Positions 1-19,068 of a stretch of 64,000 bases of DNA are shown piece by piece. The stretch spans positions 2,850,001 to 2,914,000 of the forward strand of contig NZ_CP042345.1 in the NCBI RefSeq assembly GCF_007954425.1. The letters run 5' to 3'. The notes beneath the pieces are model-generated. The model had not been told where the DNA came from. It did no database searches and was given only the letters and a program-made list of their open reading frames with translations. Position numbers and translations under genes: made by a program. Positions within the stretch are counted from its first letter, which is position 1. The number at the start of each line of letters is the position of its first letter. Source of the stretch: Novosphingobium ginsenosidimutans. GTDB lineage: Bacteria; Pseudomonadota; Alphaproteobacteria; Sphingomonadales; Sphingomonadaceae.

Positions 1-1
1 G

Positions 2-631
2 CCCTGGCCAGTGGCCAACCTGCTGTTCGCGCTCAACATCCCCGCCTGGACAATCTTTGCCGAACTGGTCGCCAATGGCGCCCATGTCTTCGCGCTGCGC
101 CACCTCACCAACCGCTGGTTGGCAGTGCTGACCATCGTTCTGGGCGGGTTGACGGTGTGGGTTGCCATGGCCTGGGGCTCGCTCGATGTGGGCGCCCGGC
201 CAGGTCATATCTGGGCGGCGATCCCGCGGGTGTTCTTTGCCTATTGCCTGGGCATCGGCCTGTGGCGCTGGCGGCAGGAGCGGGTGCTGCTCCCCCTCCC
301 CGCCGCCGTGGTCCTCGCCGCCATGTCGATTGCTATCATGGGCAGCTGGTATGGTGACTGGCGCACCTGGCAATTCGATCTGGCCTTCGTCGTGCTGCTC
401 TGCCCGCTAGTCATTTCTGCGGCGACGGCAATCACGCGCCAGACCCGGCTCGGTTGGCTCTCCGCCGCGATCTCGTTCCCACTCTTCGCGGTGCACCTGC
501 CGATCCTGGAAGCCGTCCGTGAGCTGGGTGGCAGCAAGTGGCAGGCGATCCCGCTCGCCCTTGCGACCGCTCTCACAATCGTGTGGTGGACAAACCGCCG
601 CGATGCCCGCAAGGCGCTGGCAAAGACTTAG
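2..631 (+). CDS. Acyltransferase 3 family membrane protein, C-terminal fragment
   Basis: This is the 3' end of a gene that begins before the window; the frame is open to the first base, so the GTG at 11 is probably internal. The visible 209 residues are strongly hydrophobic, with about six predicted membrane segments. The opening stretch, with NIPAWTIFAELVAN, matches the conserved segment near the middle of the OafA/YrhL-type acyltransferase 3 family, whose members transfer acyl groups to sugars or lipids at the inner membrane. The catalytic His motif lies in the missing N-terminal part. The acceptor cannot be told. The crotonase gene follows after 12 bases. Confidence 0.75.
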   Translation, partial: PWPVANLLFALNIPAWTIFAELVANGAHVFALRHLTNRWLAVLTIVLGGLTVWVAMAWGSLDVGARPGHIWAAIPRVFFAYCLGIGLWRWRQERVLLPLPAAVVLAAMSIAIMGSWYGDWRTWQFDLAFVVLLCPLVISAATAITRQTRLGWLSAAISFPLFAVHLPILEAVRELGGSKWQAIPLALATALTIVWWTNRRDARKALAKT

Positions 632-643
632 AGGAGACCCCCG

Positions 644-1450
644 ATGGAACCCGCCGTCCTGTTCGACCTTGACGATGCCGGCATCGCCACGATCACACTC
701 AACCGCCCCGATATGCGCAACCCGATCTCGGGCGACGATGTCGTCAATGGCATTTGCGATACACTGGCGGCAATGGAAGCCAATCCCAAGGTCCGCGTCG
801 CGATCCTGACTGGCGCCGGCAAGGCCTTCTCATCGGGCGGCGATATCAACGCGATGAAGCCGGGCGGCGGCGGGCTCAATGCCGGTCTCCCCGCCGGAAC
901 CCGCGGTAACTACAAGCGCGGCATCCAGCGCATTCCGTTGGCCTTTGCGGCCCTCGAAGTTCCGGTGATCGCTGCGGTCAACGGCCCGGCGATCGGCGCG
1001 GGGCTTGATCTGGCCTGCATGTGCGATCTGCGCATCGCCGGCGAAAGCGCCAAGTTTGCCGAGAGCTTCGTCAAGCTGGGGATCATTCCGGGCGATGGCG
1101 GAGCCTGGCTGCTCCAGCGTGTCGTGGGCTTCTCCAAGGCGGCGGAAATGTCGCTGACCGGGGACATGCTCGATGCTTCCGAAGCCCTGGCCTGCGGACT
1201 GGTTTCGCGCGTTGTGCCGGATGCGGACCTGCTGACCGAGGCCCGGGCGCTTGCCGCCAAGATTGCCGCCAATCCGCCGCACGCCGTGCGCATGACCAAG
1301 CGCCTGCTGTGGGAAGCGCGCCGCGCAGACCTCGCCACTGTGCTGGAGATGTCGGCCGCCATGCAGGCCGTCGCCCATGCCACCGGCGATCACGAGGAAG
1401 CGGTCAACGCCTTCCTCGAAAAGCGGAAACCCGTCTTCAAGGGTGACTGA
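644..1450 (+). CDS. Enoyl-CoA hydratase/isomerase family protein (crotonase)
   Basis: The 268-residue length is typical of a single-domain crotonase. The oxyanion-hole segments are visible: AFSSGGDINAM near residue 65 and GPAIGAGLDLACMCD near 115. The second catalytic region reads FAESFVKLGIIPGDGG, which carries the first catalytic Glu position but has Asp in place of the usual second-Glu neighbourhood, so hydratase activity is not certain. It would act on a CoA thioester in the cytoplasm. A GGAG sequence precedes the ATG. It sits between an acyltransferase and the riboflavin genes and the context gives no substrate. A different crotonase lies at 37501. Confidence 0.9.
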   Translation: MEPAVLFDLDDAGIATITLNRPDMRNPISGDDVVNGICDTLAAMEANPKVRVAILTGAGKAFSSGGDINAMKPGGGGLNAGLPAGTRGNYKRGIQRIPLAFAALEVPVIAAVNGPAIGAGLDLACMCDLRIAGESAKFAESFVKLGIIPGDGGAWLLQRVVGFSKAAEMSLTGDMLDASEALACGLVSRVVPDADLLTEARALAAKIAANPPHAVRMTKRLLWEARRADLATVLEMSAAMQAVAHATGDHEEAVNAFLEKRKPVFKGD

Positions 1451-1498
1451 ATCACATCGATGTGATTTTCCGCCTGTTGCATCACATTGTGATGTGAT
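1451..1498. promoter_or_regulatory. Two ATCACA/TGTGAT palindromes upstream of the HTH-RibBX gene
   Basis: Two inverted repeats lie in the 59-base gap before the ATG at 1510. Site 1 (1451-1466) is a perfect 16-bp palindrome, ATCACATCGATGTGAT. Site 2 (1481-1498) has 7-bp arms ATCACAT and ATGTGAT around TGTG, and can also be read as ATCACA-T-TGTGAT plus an extra TGTGAT half-site. The centres are about 31 bp apart, close to three helical turns, so bound dimers would lie on the same DNA face. The sites are AT-rich against a GC-rich background and have no T-run, so they look like operators and not a terminator. Binding by the adjacent HTH protein is inferred. Confidence 0.6.
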
Positions 1499-1509
1499 AG
1501 GCGATTCGC

Positions 1510-2811
1510 ATGTCTGCTGAACTCATCGATCGCGTCCGCCGTCTTATCAACGATGGCGGCATGTCGCGCGCCGGCCTCGCCCGCGCTGCCGGGCTCCATG
1601 CCAACACCTTGCGTGACTGCACGGAAACCGACTGGAACCCCACGGCCGAGACCCTGCGCAAGCTTGAACGCTTCCTGTGGGACAGCGACGATGAGCCGGT
1701 GCTGGTGCCGATCGAAGAGATCATCGAGGAAGCCCGCAACGGCCGCATGTTTATCCTGGTCGACGACGAAGACCGCGAGAACGAGGGCGACCTCGTCATC
1801 CCCGCGCAAATGGCCACGCCCGACGCGATCAACTTCATGGCCATGCACGGCCGCGGCCTGGTCTGCCTGACCCTGACCCGCGAACGGACCGAGCAGCTGG
1901 GCCTTGAACTGATGAGCCGCAACAATGGCACCCGGCATGAAACCGCCTTCACCGTCTCGATCGAGGCGCGCGAAGGCGTGACGACCGGGATCTCCGCTGG
2001 CGACCGCGCCCGCACTGTTGCCGTGGCGATCGATTCCAGCAAGGGCCGCCAGGATATCGTCACCCCCGGCCACGTCTTCCCGCTGATCGCGCGCGATGGC
2101 GGCGTCCTGGTACGCGCCGGCCACACAGAAGCTTCGGTCGACATTTCGCGCCTGGCCGGCCTCAATCCCTCGGGCGTGATCTGCGAGATCATGAACGAAG
2201 ACGGCACCATGGCGCGGATGGATGACCTGCTGCCCTTCGCCCGCAAGCACGGGCTGAAGATGGGCACGATCCGCGACCTCATCGCCTATCGCCGCAAGCA
2301 TGACCACCTGGTCGAAAAGCGGGCGGAACTGCGGTTCCAGAGCAAGTGGGGCGGCGAATGGACCGCCTATACCTTCTTCAACAAGGCCACCGAGGACGAG
2401 ACGATGGCCCTGGTCAAGGGCCACATCACTGCCGACAAGCCTACCCTGGTCCGAATGCACACAATGAGCATGTTCGTGGACGTGTTCGGTGAGACCAACG
2501 AGCGCTCGGGCCTGCTCTCGCGCTCGATGGAGATCATCGCCGAGGAAGGCACCGGGGTGCTGGTACTGATCAACAAGCGTATGCCAGGCATGGTGTCGCG
2601 CTTCATCGAACTGCGCCAACAGGGGAAAGGTGCCGGCGCGCCCGAAGTCGAGCAGCTGCGCGATTACGGGGTCGGCGCTCAGATCCTGGCGGAACTGGGC
2701 GTCCACGACATGATCCTTCTCACCAACACCCACCACACCCTTGCCGGGCTCGATGGCTATGGCCTGTCGATCGTCGGAGAGCGGCCCATCACCGGAACGG
2801 CAGGCGAATAA
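1510..2811 (+). CDS. ribB: HTH domain fused to 3,4-dihydroxy-2-butanone-4-phosphate synthase and a degenerate RibA domain (RibBX-type)
   Basis: The enzyme would make 3,4-dihydroxy-2-butanone 4-phosphate from ribulose 5-phosphate for riboflavin synthesis. Three parts are visible. Residues about 5-57 look like an XRE/Cro-type helix-turn-helix ([19 protein letters not shown]). Residues 66-265 are the RibB domain, with the acidic metal loop [10 protein letters not shown] at 85-94 and GHTEASVD near 204. Residues 283-425 resemble GTP cyclohydrolase II, but where RibA has its three zinc cysteines the sequence reads [12 protein letters not shown] (317-328) with no Cys, so this domain is probably not a cyclohydrolase. 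The fusion pattern matches what is called RibBX, with an added HTH. ribH overlaps by one base. No FMN riboswitch fits in the 59-base leader. Confidence 0.88.
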
Positions 2812-3230
2812 TGGCGAAATTTCTTATCGTTGAAGCGCGCTTTTACGACCACCTCAACGATCAGCTGATCGCCGGGGCCAAGGCCGCGCTGAAAGCTGCC
2901 GGGCACCAGGCTGACGTCATAACGGTCCCCGGCGCTCTGGAAATCCCCGGCGCGATCAGCCTTGCCGATCAGGCCCAGCTCTATGACGGCTATGTCGCGA
3001 TCGGCGTGGTGATCCGCGGCGAGACCTATCACTTCGAGATCGTCGCTGGCGAAAGCGCCCGCGGCATCATGGCGCTGACCATGGATGGCATGGCCATTGG
3101 CAACGGCATCCTTACGGTCGAGAACGAGCAGCAAGCCCTGGTCCGCGCCGATCCGGCCCAGAAGGACAAGGGCGGCGAAGCGGCCAAGGCGGCGATTGCA
3201 ATGCTCGAGCTGCGCGAGAAATTTACGTGA
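2811..3230 (+). CDS. ribH: 6,7-dimethyl-8-ribityllumazine synthase
   Basis: The protein condenses 5-amino-6-ribitylaminouracil with the RibB product to give lumazine, the penultimate step to riboflavin. At 139 residues it is a short-form lumazine synthase. The family signatures are present: [11 protein letters not shown] near residue 43 and [15 protein letters not shown] near 65, where the His is the usual catalytic base position. The ATG overlaps the ribBX stop in TAATG, which implies translational coupling. The product of the neighbouring gene is its direct substrate, so the two form a functional pair. Confidence 0.95.
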
Positions 3231-4162
3231 GTCATCCGGCAATTGCCGGGATTCCGCTAGTCCTGGGTGGCAACGTCTTCGGCTGGACCGCGAACCGCGA
3301 CACCAGCTTCGCCATCCTCGACGCGTTTTATGTAGCCGGCGGGCGGATGATCGATACCGCCGACGTCTATTCCGCCTGGGTGCCGGGCCACAGAGGCGGC
3401 GAGAGCGAGGCGGTGCTGGGCGATTGGCTCGAAAGCCGCGGCGTGCGCCAAGATATGCGTATCCACACCAAGACCGGCATGCTCGCACCCGGAGGCGGCG
3501 ATCCTTCGCTCTACGACCCGCAGCGGATTGCGCATTCGCTCCAGCAGTCCCTTGACCGGCTGCGGACCGATTACATCGATCTCTACTATGCCCACCGCGA
3601 TTACACAGAGCTGTCCGCCAGCGATATCGTCGCCGCCTTTACCGGTGCAGCCGAGGGCAAGGTTCGCGCGTTTGGCGTCTCGAAGTTTTCGGCGGCTCGC
3701 CTTGAAGCGGTGCTGTCCGCCAGCAAGGCCAGCGGCGGGATGGCGATCACAGCGCTGCAAAACGAATACAACCTGGTGTCACGCGCAGACTATGGCCTGG
3801 ATCTGCAGGCGATCTGCACCGCAAGCGGCGTAGCGATGCTGCCGTTCTTCGGCCTCGCCAACGGCTTTCTGTCCGGCAAGTACCGGGTGGAGGCCGACCT
3901 CGGCAAATCGGTGCGCGGCATGCGCCTGCAGCAGCTGATCGTCACCGGCAAGCCGATGCTGGCCGCGATGGATCAGATCGCCGCCGAAACCGGCGCTTCG
4001 CATGCCGCCATTGCTCTGGCCTGGCTGCGCCATCAGCCTGGCATCGCGGCTCCGATCGCCAGCGCCACCCGCGTAGAACAGCTGGTCCAGCTGATCGAAA
4101 GCGCCGCGCTTGAACTGAGCGACGATCAGGTCGAGCGCCTGAGCGCCGTTCAGCTCGGCTAG
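3227..4162 (+). CDS. Aldo/keto reductase
   Basis: The 311-residue protein has the (beta/alpha)8 aldo/keto reductase pattern. The catalytic tetrad is visible as Asp43 and Tyr48 ([11 protein letters not shown]), Lys82 (HTKTG) and His123 (LYYAHRDY). It probably reduces an aldehyde or ketone with NADPH in the cytoplasm, resembling the YajO/Tas group. It starts at GTG 3227 inside the ribH stop (GTGA), so it is probably cotranscribed with the riboflavin genes. A link to flavin chemistry is not shown by the sequence. Confidence 0.9.
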
Positions 4163-4172
4163 GCGCCCGCGA

Positions 4173-4700
4173 TCAACCCTTCACCGGGGCGCAGCTATCG
4201 GCGCGGCGGGCCTGGTCGACCTCGGCAAACAGTTCTGCGGAAGGTGCCAAGCGCCGGTCGAGGATGATCCCCTTGTCCGAGGGTGAATTCACCACCTGCA
4301 TACCCACCGGTGCCACCTGATCCTCGCGCTTCAGCACAAACCGGATGCCCTTGGGGTACTGCGTCGTGTCCAGCGCCGCGATATTGTCCGTATTCGCGGC
4401 GAATACCGAGAGCGAGACATAGCCCTGGTTGGGTGACGGTGCCGCGCTGACCAGCAACGGTCCCTTGCTGAGATCATAGACGCAGGAGGAATAGGCGAGA
4501 TCCGGCGATGGCCGCACCACGCCGCGCGAATCCTTGGTGGTGCGCGGGCCAAAACTGAACTGGTTGATCCGGGCCCCATCGCCGGACATCCGGTTCATCG
4601 CCACTTTCATCAGTGCGTGCGGTACGGCCATGACCAGCCCGACATGGCCAATCACTGCCGCGCCGACAAACAGTGCCAGCAGTTTGAGGTTGCGGGTCAT
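4173..4700 (-). CDS. DUF1254 domain-containing protein
   Basis: This 175-residue protein has one N-terminal hydrophobic segment (about residues 5-25), a membrane anchor or signal, followed by a DUF1254-like domain with INQFSFGPRTTKDSRGVVRPSPDLAYSSCVYDLS. The ATG at 4700 has a GGAGGTG Shine-Dalgarno 4-5 bases further than usual contact distance and overlaps the DUF1214 stop by four bases (ATGA), which decides the start over an in-frame codon at 4715. In many bacteria DUF1254 and DUF1214 are fused; here they are separate coupled genes. The function is unknown, and it probably lies in the envelope. Confidence 0.8.
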   Translation of the reverse strand: MTRNLKLLALFVGAAVIGHVGLVMAVPHALMKVAMNRMSGDGARINQFSFGPRTTKDSRGVVRPSPDLAYSSCVYDLSKGPLLVSAAPSPNQGYVSLSVFAANTDNIAALDTTQYPKGIRFVLKREDQVAPVGMQVVNSPSDKGIILDRRLAPSAELFAEVDQARRADSCAPVKG

Positions 4701-5281
4701 GCTGCACCTCCGCAATCAAGCTTGGTGACTTTGGGCATCGGGATCGCGTCATAATCCTGCTGCGCCTGCGGCGTCGGCTGATAGAGACGAAGGGTAATGT
4801 CGTAGTCGCCCGCCTTGTTGGTCGAGGCCCAGGGTTCGCCATCTGGCTGCTTGGGCGAAAGGATGCCGGTCCATTCCGCTTTCCCCGTCGGCTGCGCCTC
4901 GGTCTGGTCAAACGATAGGGCATCGTCGTCGTTGAGCGGCAAGTAGTTGTCGGCCGCGTAGACCGTGATCGACCACCACCGCGCCGGCATGGCCCCACCG
5001 GTCACCCGGTACCGGCAATCCTCGCGCAGGCGGGCACCGCTATCGTCGGTGTTGCGGCTGAAGTAGATCGCCTGGCTCTTGTTGAGCGCCAGTAGACCCG
5101 AAACAGCCACCCGCGCGCGGGTCCAGGGATCGGCATCGACCGAGCCGGTCACCTTGCTGCCGCTCCATCCCGAGTAGGTGTCGCCCTGCACCATGCCATG
5201 CTGCAAGGTGTACCATCCCGAAGCCGCGCCGACGGCCAGGCCGGCAAGCAGCACGCCAGCGGTAGCGAGCTTACCCGACAT
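4697..5281 (-). CDS. DUF1214 domain-containing protein
   Basis: The 194-residue protein has an N-terminal hydrophobic segment (about residues 5-22, LATAGVLLAGLAVGAASGW) and then a DUF1214-like domain. This includes CRYRVTGGAMPARWWSITVYAADNYL, a beta-rich block typical of that family, and a C-terminal run with ITLRLYQP. It overlaps the upstream gene by 11 bases and the downstream DUF1254 gene by four, so the genes form a tightly coupled operon. Both small proteins probably face the periplasm and may pair. Substrate and reaction are unknown. Confidence 0.8.
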   Translation of the reverse strand: MSGKLATAGVLLAGLAVGAASGWYTLQHGMVQGDTYSGWSGSKVTGSVDADPWTRARVAVSGLLALNKSQAIYFSRNTDDSGARLREDCRYRVTGGAMPARWWSITVYAADNYLPLNDDDALSFDQTEAQPTGKAEWTGILSPKQPDGEPWASTNKAGDYDITLRLYQPTPQAQQDYDAIPMPKVTKLDCGGAA

Positions 5282-17229: not shown

Positions 17230-19068
17230 ATGCTCAGCCCCCAATGGCTTGATGAACTCCGCGCCCGGGTGACGCTGTCCAGCGTCATTTCCCGGACGAC
17301 GCGGCTCACCAAGGCGGGGCATGAATTCAAGGCCTGCTGCCCGTTCCACAACGAGAAGAGCCCCAGCTTCACGGTCAACGACCAGAAGGGGTTCTATCAC
17401 TGCTTTGGCTGCGGGGCGCATGGCGATGTGATCCGCTGGATGACCGACCAGCGCGGCCTGTCGTTCATGGATGCGATCAAGGAGCTGGCGAGCGAGGCCG
17501 GGCTGGAAGTCCCCGCCCCCGATCCGCGCGCGGCCCAGGCCGCAGAGCAGCGGGACAGCCTGCACGATGTGATGAAGGCCGCGCAGGACTGGTTTGTGGC
17601 GCAGCTCGCCGGGCCGGAGGGCGATAAGGCCCGCGCCTATCTCGCCACGCGTGGGTTCGATGCCCATACATTGCAGCGCTTCGGCTTCGGCTATGCACCG
17701 GAAGGCCGCCAAGCCTTGAAGGCGGCGCTGAAGGATGTGCCCGAAGCCAAGCTGATCGAGGCGGGCCTGCGCATCGCAGTTGAAGACAAGGAACCCTATG
17801 ACCGGTTCCGCGGCCGGCTGATGCTGCCGATCGAGGACGCGCGCGGGCGCGTAATTGCCTTTGGCGGCCGTATTCTTGATGCGCAGAAGACCGATGCGCC
17901 CAAGTACCTGAACTCACCCGATACGCCTCTGTTCGACAAGGGTCGCACGCTCTACAATCTCCACCGCGCTGGCCCAGCGAGCCGCCAGACCGGGCGGATC
18001 GTGGTGGTTGAAGGCTATATGGACGTGATCGCTCTGGCCGCAGCCGGAATTGCCGATGCCGTCGCGCCGCTGGGTACCGCGCTGACCGAACGGCAGATCG
18101 AACTGCTGTGGCGATTGGTTGAAGCGCCAGTCCTCTGCTTTGACGGCGATGCTGCCGGACAGCGCGCCGCCATGCGGGCGATCACCCGCGCCCTGCCCCT
18201 ACTCCGCCCTGCTCATTCGCTCAAGATTGTCCGCCTGCCACCGGGGCTGGATCCCGATGACCTGATCAAGCAGCAGGGCGTCGCAGCGATGGAAGCCCAG
18301 CTCGCCAATGCCCGCTCGCTGATCGAGGTGCTGTGGGAACATGAGCGCGATTCCGCTCCGCTCGCCACGCCGGAGGACAAGGCCGGGCTCAAGGCGCGGC
18401 TGCTGGCCCATGTCGAGACGATTGCCGATCGCGACATCCAGGCGCTCTACCGGCGCGAACTGCTTGAGCGATTCTCAGATTTCGCTTTTCCCCGCCGCGA
18501 GAGCCGCGACGGCCGCGACTGGCGCAAGCCTTCCGCGCCGCCGCGGCGGGCCTCGGCCGTTCTTCGCGCTCCCCCGCGCGATGCGCTTTCGGCCGCGGTA
18601 CTGACCGGATTGCTGCGCTTTCCGGACCAGATTCACCGTCATGCCGAGGTGCTGGGTCAGGCGGGACTGGCCGATCCGCGCTTTGATGTACTGCTGGATG
18701 CAGCCGACTCGGCGGCAACGCTTGAAAAGGGGGCGATGGAACCCATATTGGCCAAACGGGGTATGGCTGCCCCGACCCCAGAGGAATATGCCGCAATGCG
18801 CTTTGGCTTTCTGGCCGATGCCATTCCACCGGAACAGGCCCGCGCCGAGCTTGCCCAGGCAATCGGCTTGCTGGTCGAGCGTCCGGCGCTGGAAGCGGCG
18901 TTGGCAGCGGCCACAAAGCGGTTTGAAAGCGACCTTTCCGAGGGGGCCTATGCCGAACAGCAGCGGCTGTTGAAGAGAAAACTGGAATTCGATGCGCGCT
19001 TGCGGCAAATGGCCAGCGCGCGAGCGGGGGCGGCGCTGTCTTCCCCTGCCAAACCAATGGCGGACTAA
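17230..19068 (+). CDS. dnaG: DNA primase
   Basis: DnaG makes RNA primers for replication. The 612-residue protein has the N-terminal CHC2 zinc finger with Cys37, His40, Cys58 and Cys61 ([12 protein letters not shown] through [11 protein letters not shown]). The Toprim core has [11 protein letters not shown] near residue 260 and [12 protein letters not shown] near 300, which supply the metal-binding acidic residues. The C-terminal helicase-binding part is variable. The ATG abuts the DUF559 stop, and the stop overlaps rpoD by one base (TAATG), so dnaG and rpoD are coupled; no rpsU is present. Confidence 0.97.

Follow-up and report, generated by a model that had tools for sequence, protein, structure and literature searches.

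Sequence comparison makes it quite probable that HTH-RibBX, the protein encoded at 1510-2811 of the window (the whole 64,000-nucleotide stretch of Novosphingobium ginsenosidimutans DNA analysed here), is an autorepressing enzyme that would act mainly on its own ribBX-ribH genes. The first-pass annotation of this DNA had predicted that a palindrome in front of the gene would go with its helix-turn-helix (HTH), and this is what was found among 158 distinct RibB(X) genes: the site TCACATNNNNATGTGA lies just upstream, at no more than two mismatches, in 102 of the 104 with an HTH and in 0 of the 54 without one. The features discussed below are as follows.

1451..1466, no strand: distal putative operator ATCACATCGATGTGAT, a palindrome in the 59-bp gap
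1477..1503, + strand: predicted promoter core, from the family alignment; weak in the window itself
1477-1479, + strand: putative -35-like TTG, with the operator core as spacer
1481..1498, no strand: proximal putative operator ATCACATTGTGATGTGAT, whose conserved core, 1482-1497, is TCACATTGTGATGTGA
1498-1499, + strand: putative start of a -10-like element, TA
1510..2811, + strand: HTH-RibBX (HTH, DHBP synthase and degenerate GTP cyclohydrolase II), 433 aa
1510..1695, + strand: HTH domain, residues 1-62
1714..2289, + strand: DHBP synthase (RibB) domain, residues 69-260, with two motifs kept, one of them GHTEA
2320..2784, + strand: RibX, GTP cyclohydrolase II-like domain, residues 271-425, with zero cysteines
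2811..3230, + strand: ribH, lumazine synthase, its ATG overlapping the HTH-ribBX stop
3227..4162, + strand: aldo-keto reductase-like ORF, overlapping the end of ribH

The HTH-RibBX Protein and Its Locus

Both the sequence and a structure model place the DNA-binding and catalytic domains on one chain; the full-length model was itself dropped as poor (mean pLDDT 53). The HTH is Cro/C1-like and is real though weak in Pfam, where HTH_3 and HTH_31 match the isolated domain with an E of about 0.002, under the cut-offs (18.7 bits for HTH_3 on the window's domain, against a curated cut-off of 23). Relatives match with a best E of 4.7e-7, and 9 of 21 members do so at 0.01. Residues 28-36, GLHANTLRD, are invariant in 14 same-genus rows and likely form the recognition segment.

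The DHBP synthase domain is intact, scoring 280 bits with PF00926, and its DDEDREN-like and GHTEA-like motifs are kept in all 104 HTH-bearing proteins. RibX, by comparison, reaches 54 bits with TIGR00505 (cut-off 206), no cysteine follows residue 225 of HTH-RibBX, and the zinc motif of GTP cyclohydrolase II is found in 0 of the 104. Apart from the weak HTH hits, the only models matched are PF00926 and PF00925, and a CTP-dependent riboflavin kinase domain is absent. The claim that an HTH is fused to a RibB-type enzyme starting at 1510 thus holds, the chain being composed of HTH, intact RibB and degenerate RibX. Elsewhere in the window's genome (G000) there is one GTP cyclohydrolase II-like match, a distant one at G000:C1:915692-916123 with 34% identity over residues 295-425.

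The gene begins 59 bases past the stop of an enoyl-CoA hydratase-like ORF (644-1450), and ribH is probably co-operonic with it because the ribH ATG overlaps the HTH-ribBX stop. The aldo-keto reductase-like ORF is a possible third operon gene, and an ORF resembling it also follows ribH in G163 and G068. Directly upstream of the RibB(X) gene, the C-terminal motif of ribE (riboflavin synthase) was found in 41 of 54 HTH-less genes versus 19 of 104 HTH genes, so genes that carry the HTH and operator tend to belong to a transcription unit of their own. Two short metagenome ORFs, P0194 and P0198, have the HTH joined to an apparent riboflavin synthase C-terminus, on contigs of 1282 and 617 bases, so the join may be an assembly artefact.

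Two Unequal Palindromes in the Upstream Gap

Two palindromes with centres about 31 bp apart had been reported in the 59-base gap, and the coordinates bear this out (1451-1466 versus the core at 1482-1497, 31 bp). The pattern ATCACAN{0,8}TGTGAT has 2 matches in the window versus 0.02 expected from shuffles; with gaps of up to 12 allowed, the whole 3.12 Mb genome contains both of these sites and one other, which lies inside another ORF. The description of the pair as matching palindromes was right in that both are present, but across relatives they are unequal, the proximal site being the strong one and the distal site a real, looser copy.

The consensus of the proximal site, aTCACATTNNAATGTGATA, was taken from 97 aligned rows, comprising 30 same-genus and 76 further loci minus 9. 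Those 9 of 106 rows were left out because their assigned start is not preceded by a site at 9-22 nt; in each, a site with 0-2 mismatches stands 7-59 nt ahead of that start. For the distal copy, the best match falls 30-33 bp upstream of the proximal site in 71 of the 97 rows, versus 15% of shuffles.

Co-Occurrence of the HTH and the Site

A profile search for the HTH gave hits in 160 of the 199 genomes of the Sphingomonadaceae sample, spread over 75 of its 96 genera; G070, one of the 160, matched weakly and gave no RibB match. The 39 family genomes lacking an HTH match comprise 34 with a RibB-like match, 2 with a weak RibA-like match only and 3 with no match. Two genomes of the same family, G085 and G127 (96 and 98% complete), gave no match to the RibBX query and are possibly riboflavin auxotrophs.

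By mismatches to the site, the HTH-bearing genes divide into 49 at 0, 34 at 1, 19 at 2 and 2 at 3, while 2 of the 54 HTH-less genes have it at 3. Orthologues that keep the HTH and miss the palindrome, which the first-pass annotation had named as evidence against its reading, therefore did not turn up, the last two of the 104 having the site at three mismatches. Counted by locus, the 120 bp upstream contain a site with up to two mismatches in 30/30 same-genus and 74/76 further loci (mostly one per genus), with the remaining 2 at three mismatches. When 330 bp were searched in front of 27 HTH-less orthologues of the family, 0 had the site at up to two mismatches and 2 had it at three. About 0.4% of shuffled HTH-gene upstream stretches reach two mismatches or fewer, and all 79 named-genome loci with enough upstream DNA (of 80) do so. 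HTH-less RibB(X) copies stand beside HTH-ribBX in five same-genus genomes (G015, G027, G029, G030 and G032), and these copies (L271, L272, L273, L274, L275 and L277) have no site at up to two mismatches.

In searches of whole genomes, the exact site is present in 85 of the 160 family genomes with an HTH match and in 0 of the 39 without, and the reversed site used as a control occurs in 0 of 199. Among the exact-site matches listed, 70 of 75 are just upstream of an HTH gene (68 placed there by their coordinates, those of G067 and G234 by inspection of the sequence). Stray exact sites lie about 2.6 kb beyond the HTH in G163, within the 3' part of ribBX in G212, within an ORF in G164, and, in G225, before an ORF resembling by eye an outer-membrane protein. 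Another, in G161:C21:9700-12700 (L298), is upstream of an ORF that by eye resembles a phage terminase.

The window's genome contains the exact site once, zero sites at one mismatch, and 13 at two mismatches versus 4 for the reversed control, an excess that leaves weak extra targets possible. None of the 13 is, by coordinates, near riboflavin synthase, ribF or RibA-like genes. On these sequence matches there is likely to be one main target. A wider regulon was considered and rejected, given the single exact site in the window's genome and no shared second target in relatives. The 13 two-mismatch sites are loci L252-L264, and one of them, G000:C1:2867416, falls in the window at 17416-17431.

Close relatives whose ribBX genes differ in having or lacking the HTH provide a natural experiment, and one genus, g113, includes genomes of both kinds, some having an HTH match and some lacking one. 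A quick maximum-likelihood tree was built from the RibBX part, with the HTH omitted; on it the HTH label switches 10 times, and at least 4 of the changes are forced by well-supported branches. Of 4 independent pairs, an average of 3.9 have the site tracking the HTH (median p 0.125); since independent supported pairs number only 4, no significance is attainable. Repeated joint gain or loss of HTH and site is thus likely from the sequences, though not statistically secured.

Position of the Site and Absence of an FMN Riboswitch

In the family alignment, 72 of 97 rows have a TTG 2-9 nt ahead of the proximal site (versus 10% when shuffled), and in 48 of 97 a TA stands immediately behind it. From site to start codon the distance is mostly 11-14 nt, in rows that had been chosen for that distance, and a Shine-Dalgarno core lies between the two in 10 of the 97. 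A sigma-70 consensus scan of 1400-1600 found no promoter, so the overlap of promoter and operator is read from the family alignment and not from the window itself. On this alignment the proximal operator probably fills the promoter spacer, and the ribBX mRNA would be nearly leaderless. A site placed between TTG- and TA-containing elements near the start codon has the position expected of a repressor site.

In other bacteria, rib operons are controlled by the FMN riboswitch. The gap had been said to have no room for one, which is true but argues weakly by itself, as family members that lack the HTH are also without a riboswitch; for the same reason, riboswitch loss was rejected as a general explanation. 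RF00050 has no match in window positions 1-5000 and, under stricter filters, none in the whole of the window's genome. Under those filters a match was found in 69 of 385 sampled genomes of Alphaproteobacteria, and because FMN riboswitches are sparse across the class, their absence alone argues little.

Within the family, an FMN riboswitch match was obtained in 1 of 199 genomes, G224, with 198 lacking it. This genome has no HTH and no exact site, and carries a ribD-ribE-ribBA-ribH-like operon behind the riboswitch (L265, G224:C1:1154000-1163500), while its congeners G068 and G162 have both the HTH and the exact site. The RibBA of G224 is 46% identical over the match to the window's RibBX, which suggests replacement by horizontal transfer. 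As a single case, it is suggestive of one control system standing in for another.

Proposed Mechanism and Alternative Readings

DHBP synthase is dimeric in solved homologues. A RibB dimer of HTH-RibBX would present two HTHs, which could grip both half-sites of the proximal operator, lying about one DNA turn apart, and a second dimer might occupy the distal copy, which is weaker and sits about three turns upstream. With the proximal operator presumably in the spacer between -35 and -10, protein bound there should exclude RNA polymerase and turn ribBX-ribH off, so that further synthesis would stop once enough enzyme is present. Dimer binding, repression and cooperativity are all conjectured here from the arrangement of domains and sites.

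The autorepressor reading can be refined in two ways, according to whether a ligand takes part. In the first, which has a substantial if somewhat less than even chance, HTH-RibBX binds its own operator with no ligand effect and repression is set by the amount of enzyme, as a concentration homeostat. A single main target promoter suits such self-control, and RibX is conserved to the same degree whether or not the HTH is present (mean pairwise identity 0.52 with it versus 0.53 without, and 0.82 versus 0.84 for RibB). Against it, in known enzyme-regulators DNA binding is usually tied to a ligand, and an active enzyme binds its own substrate anyway. In the second, put forward tentatively and with some doubt, an HTH-plus-operator cassette was added to RibBX and freed ribBX-ribH from the ribDE operon; the product would be an enzyme-borne, metabolite-sensing riboflavin repressor, functionally interchangeable with the FMN riboswitch, with RibX or the RibB active site as its sensor. 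That ribulose 5-phosphate or flavin shifts the affinity, making the protein a metabolic sensor and not a simple homeostat, is speculative. No RibX position compared between the HTH and HTH-less groups differs systematically, and its equal conservation in both lends no support to RibX as sensor, a role that was rejected for want of HTH-specific conservation. Sensing at the RibB site and plain protein dosage are equally possible.

Aside from autorepression, HTH-RibBX might activate the promoter or bend the spacer DNA open, as MerR-type regulators bend promoter-spacer DNA to open a promoter. An operator filling the spacer between promoter-like elements is what is seen at MerR-type promoters, and sequence by itself gives no discrimination between repression and activation. 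However, the spacing implied by the alignment is about normal (16-17 bp) and not stretched, and a self-activating biosynthetic gene would need another brake, which together make activation improbable. It is still harder to credit that a different regulator binds the palindromes and that the HTH has some other role, since site and HTH co-occur across one family, and such a regulator should have left some sites in genomes without an HTH match, where the exact site was never found.

A role for the palindromes in RNA, whether they terminate the gene before them or fold as a leader hairpin, is hardly credible: inverted repeats do sit in an intergenic gap, but no terminator-like site was found at the locus, the letters themselves are conserved and not pairing only, transcription from the predicted promoter would start downstream of the proximal site, and Rfam, with E values up to 1 allowed, gave for window positions 1-5000 a single match, a sub-threshold snoRNA distant from the gap.

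Distribution and Comparison with Known Systems

Among 296 order-level and 385 class-level genomes, the long HTH-RibBX frame was found only in Sphingomonadaceae, with frames listed for G047 and 12 class genomes among the weaker outside hits. In the order sample, 3 of 185 matching genomes lie outside the family (G047, G643 and G682), as do 12 of 16 in the class sample, all with weaker hits. The frames of those 12 measure 78 to 749 aa, none of them 410-500, and that of G047 94 aa; in G081, G096 and G047, hits to the HTH alone have no RibB match close by. In the literature searched, mostly by title and the start of the abstract and with few subscription journals, no description of an HTH-RibB fusion was recognised.

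The archaeal RbkR is an HTH fused to a CTP-dependent riboflavin kinase, and its targets are rib genes. HTH-RibBX resembles it in uniting a DNA-binding domain and a flavin-pathway enzyme in one protein, but is bacterial, has DHBP synthase in place of a kinase and carries a Cro/C1-like HTH, so that the domains differ. Control of a riboflavin operon by RbkR is mentioned in PMC10746257. A term search of the main text of a 2025 review (PMC12542839) returned no RbkR, HTH or helix-turn-helix. Compared with Cro/C1-type HTH proteins such as HipB, SinR, C.Esp1396I and P22 c2, the window's HTH has no convincing sequence relative among solved structures, the best match being a T4 lysozyme at E 0.029.

RibBX itself was reportedly treated by Brutinel in 2013. 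The window protein shares the same RibB and RibX body, with the zinc site lost, and differs from it by an added N-terminal HTH and a putative operator at its own promoter. In PMC10012899, RibBX is described as DHBP synthase with a degenerate GTP cyclohydrolase II. The FMN riboswitch is an RNA element, unlike the HTH-ribBX system of protein and DNA sites. Most sampled Alphaproteobacteria have no match to that riboswitch (316 of 385, under the stricter filters); to the question of how they control vitamin B2 synthesis, HTH-RibBX would be a concrete answer in one family.

PutA, BirA and NadR are DNA-binding trigger enzymes, in which an enzyme doubles as repressor of pathway genes; to our knowledge, none of them is a DHBP synthase. 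HTH-RibBX is proposed to be likewise enzyme and repressor, with the difference that here HTH and operator come and go together, and on its sequence it would be new among such enzymes. As a flavin enzyme with a possible hand in controlling its own pathway, it would be a second case beside archaeal RbkR.
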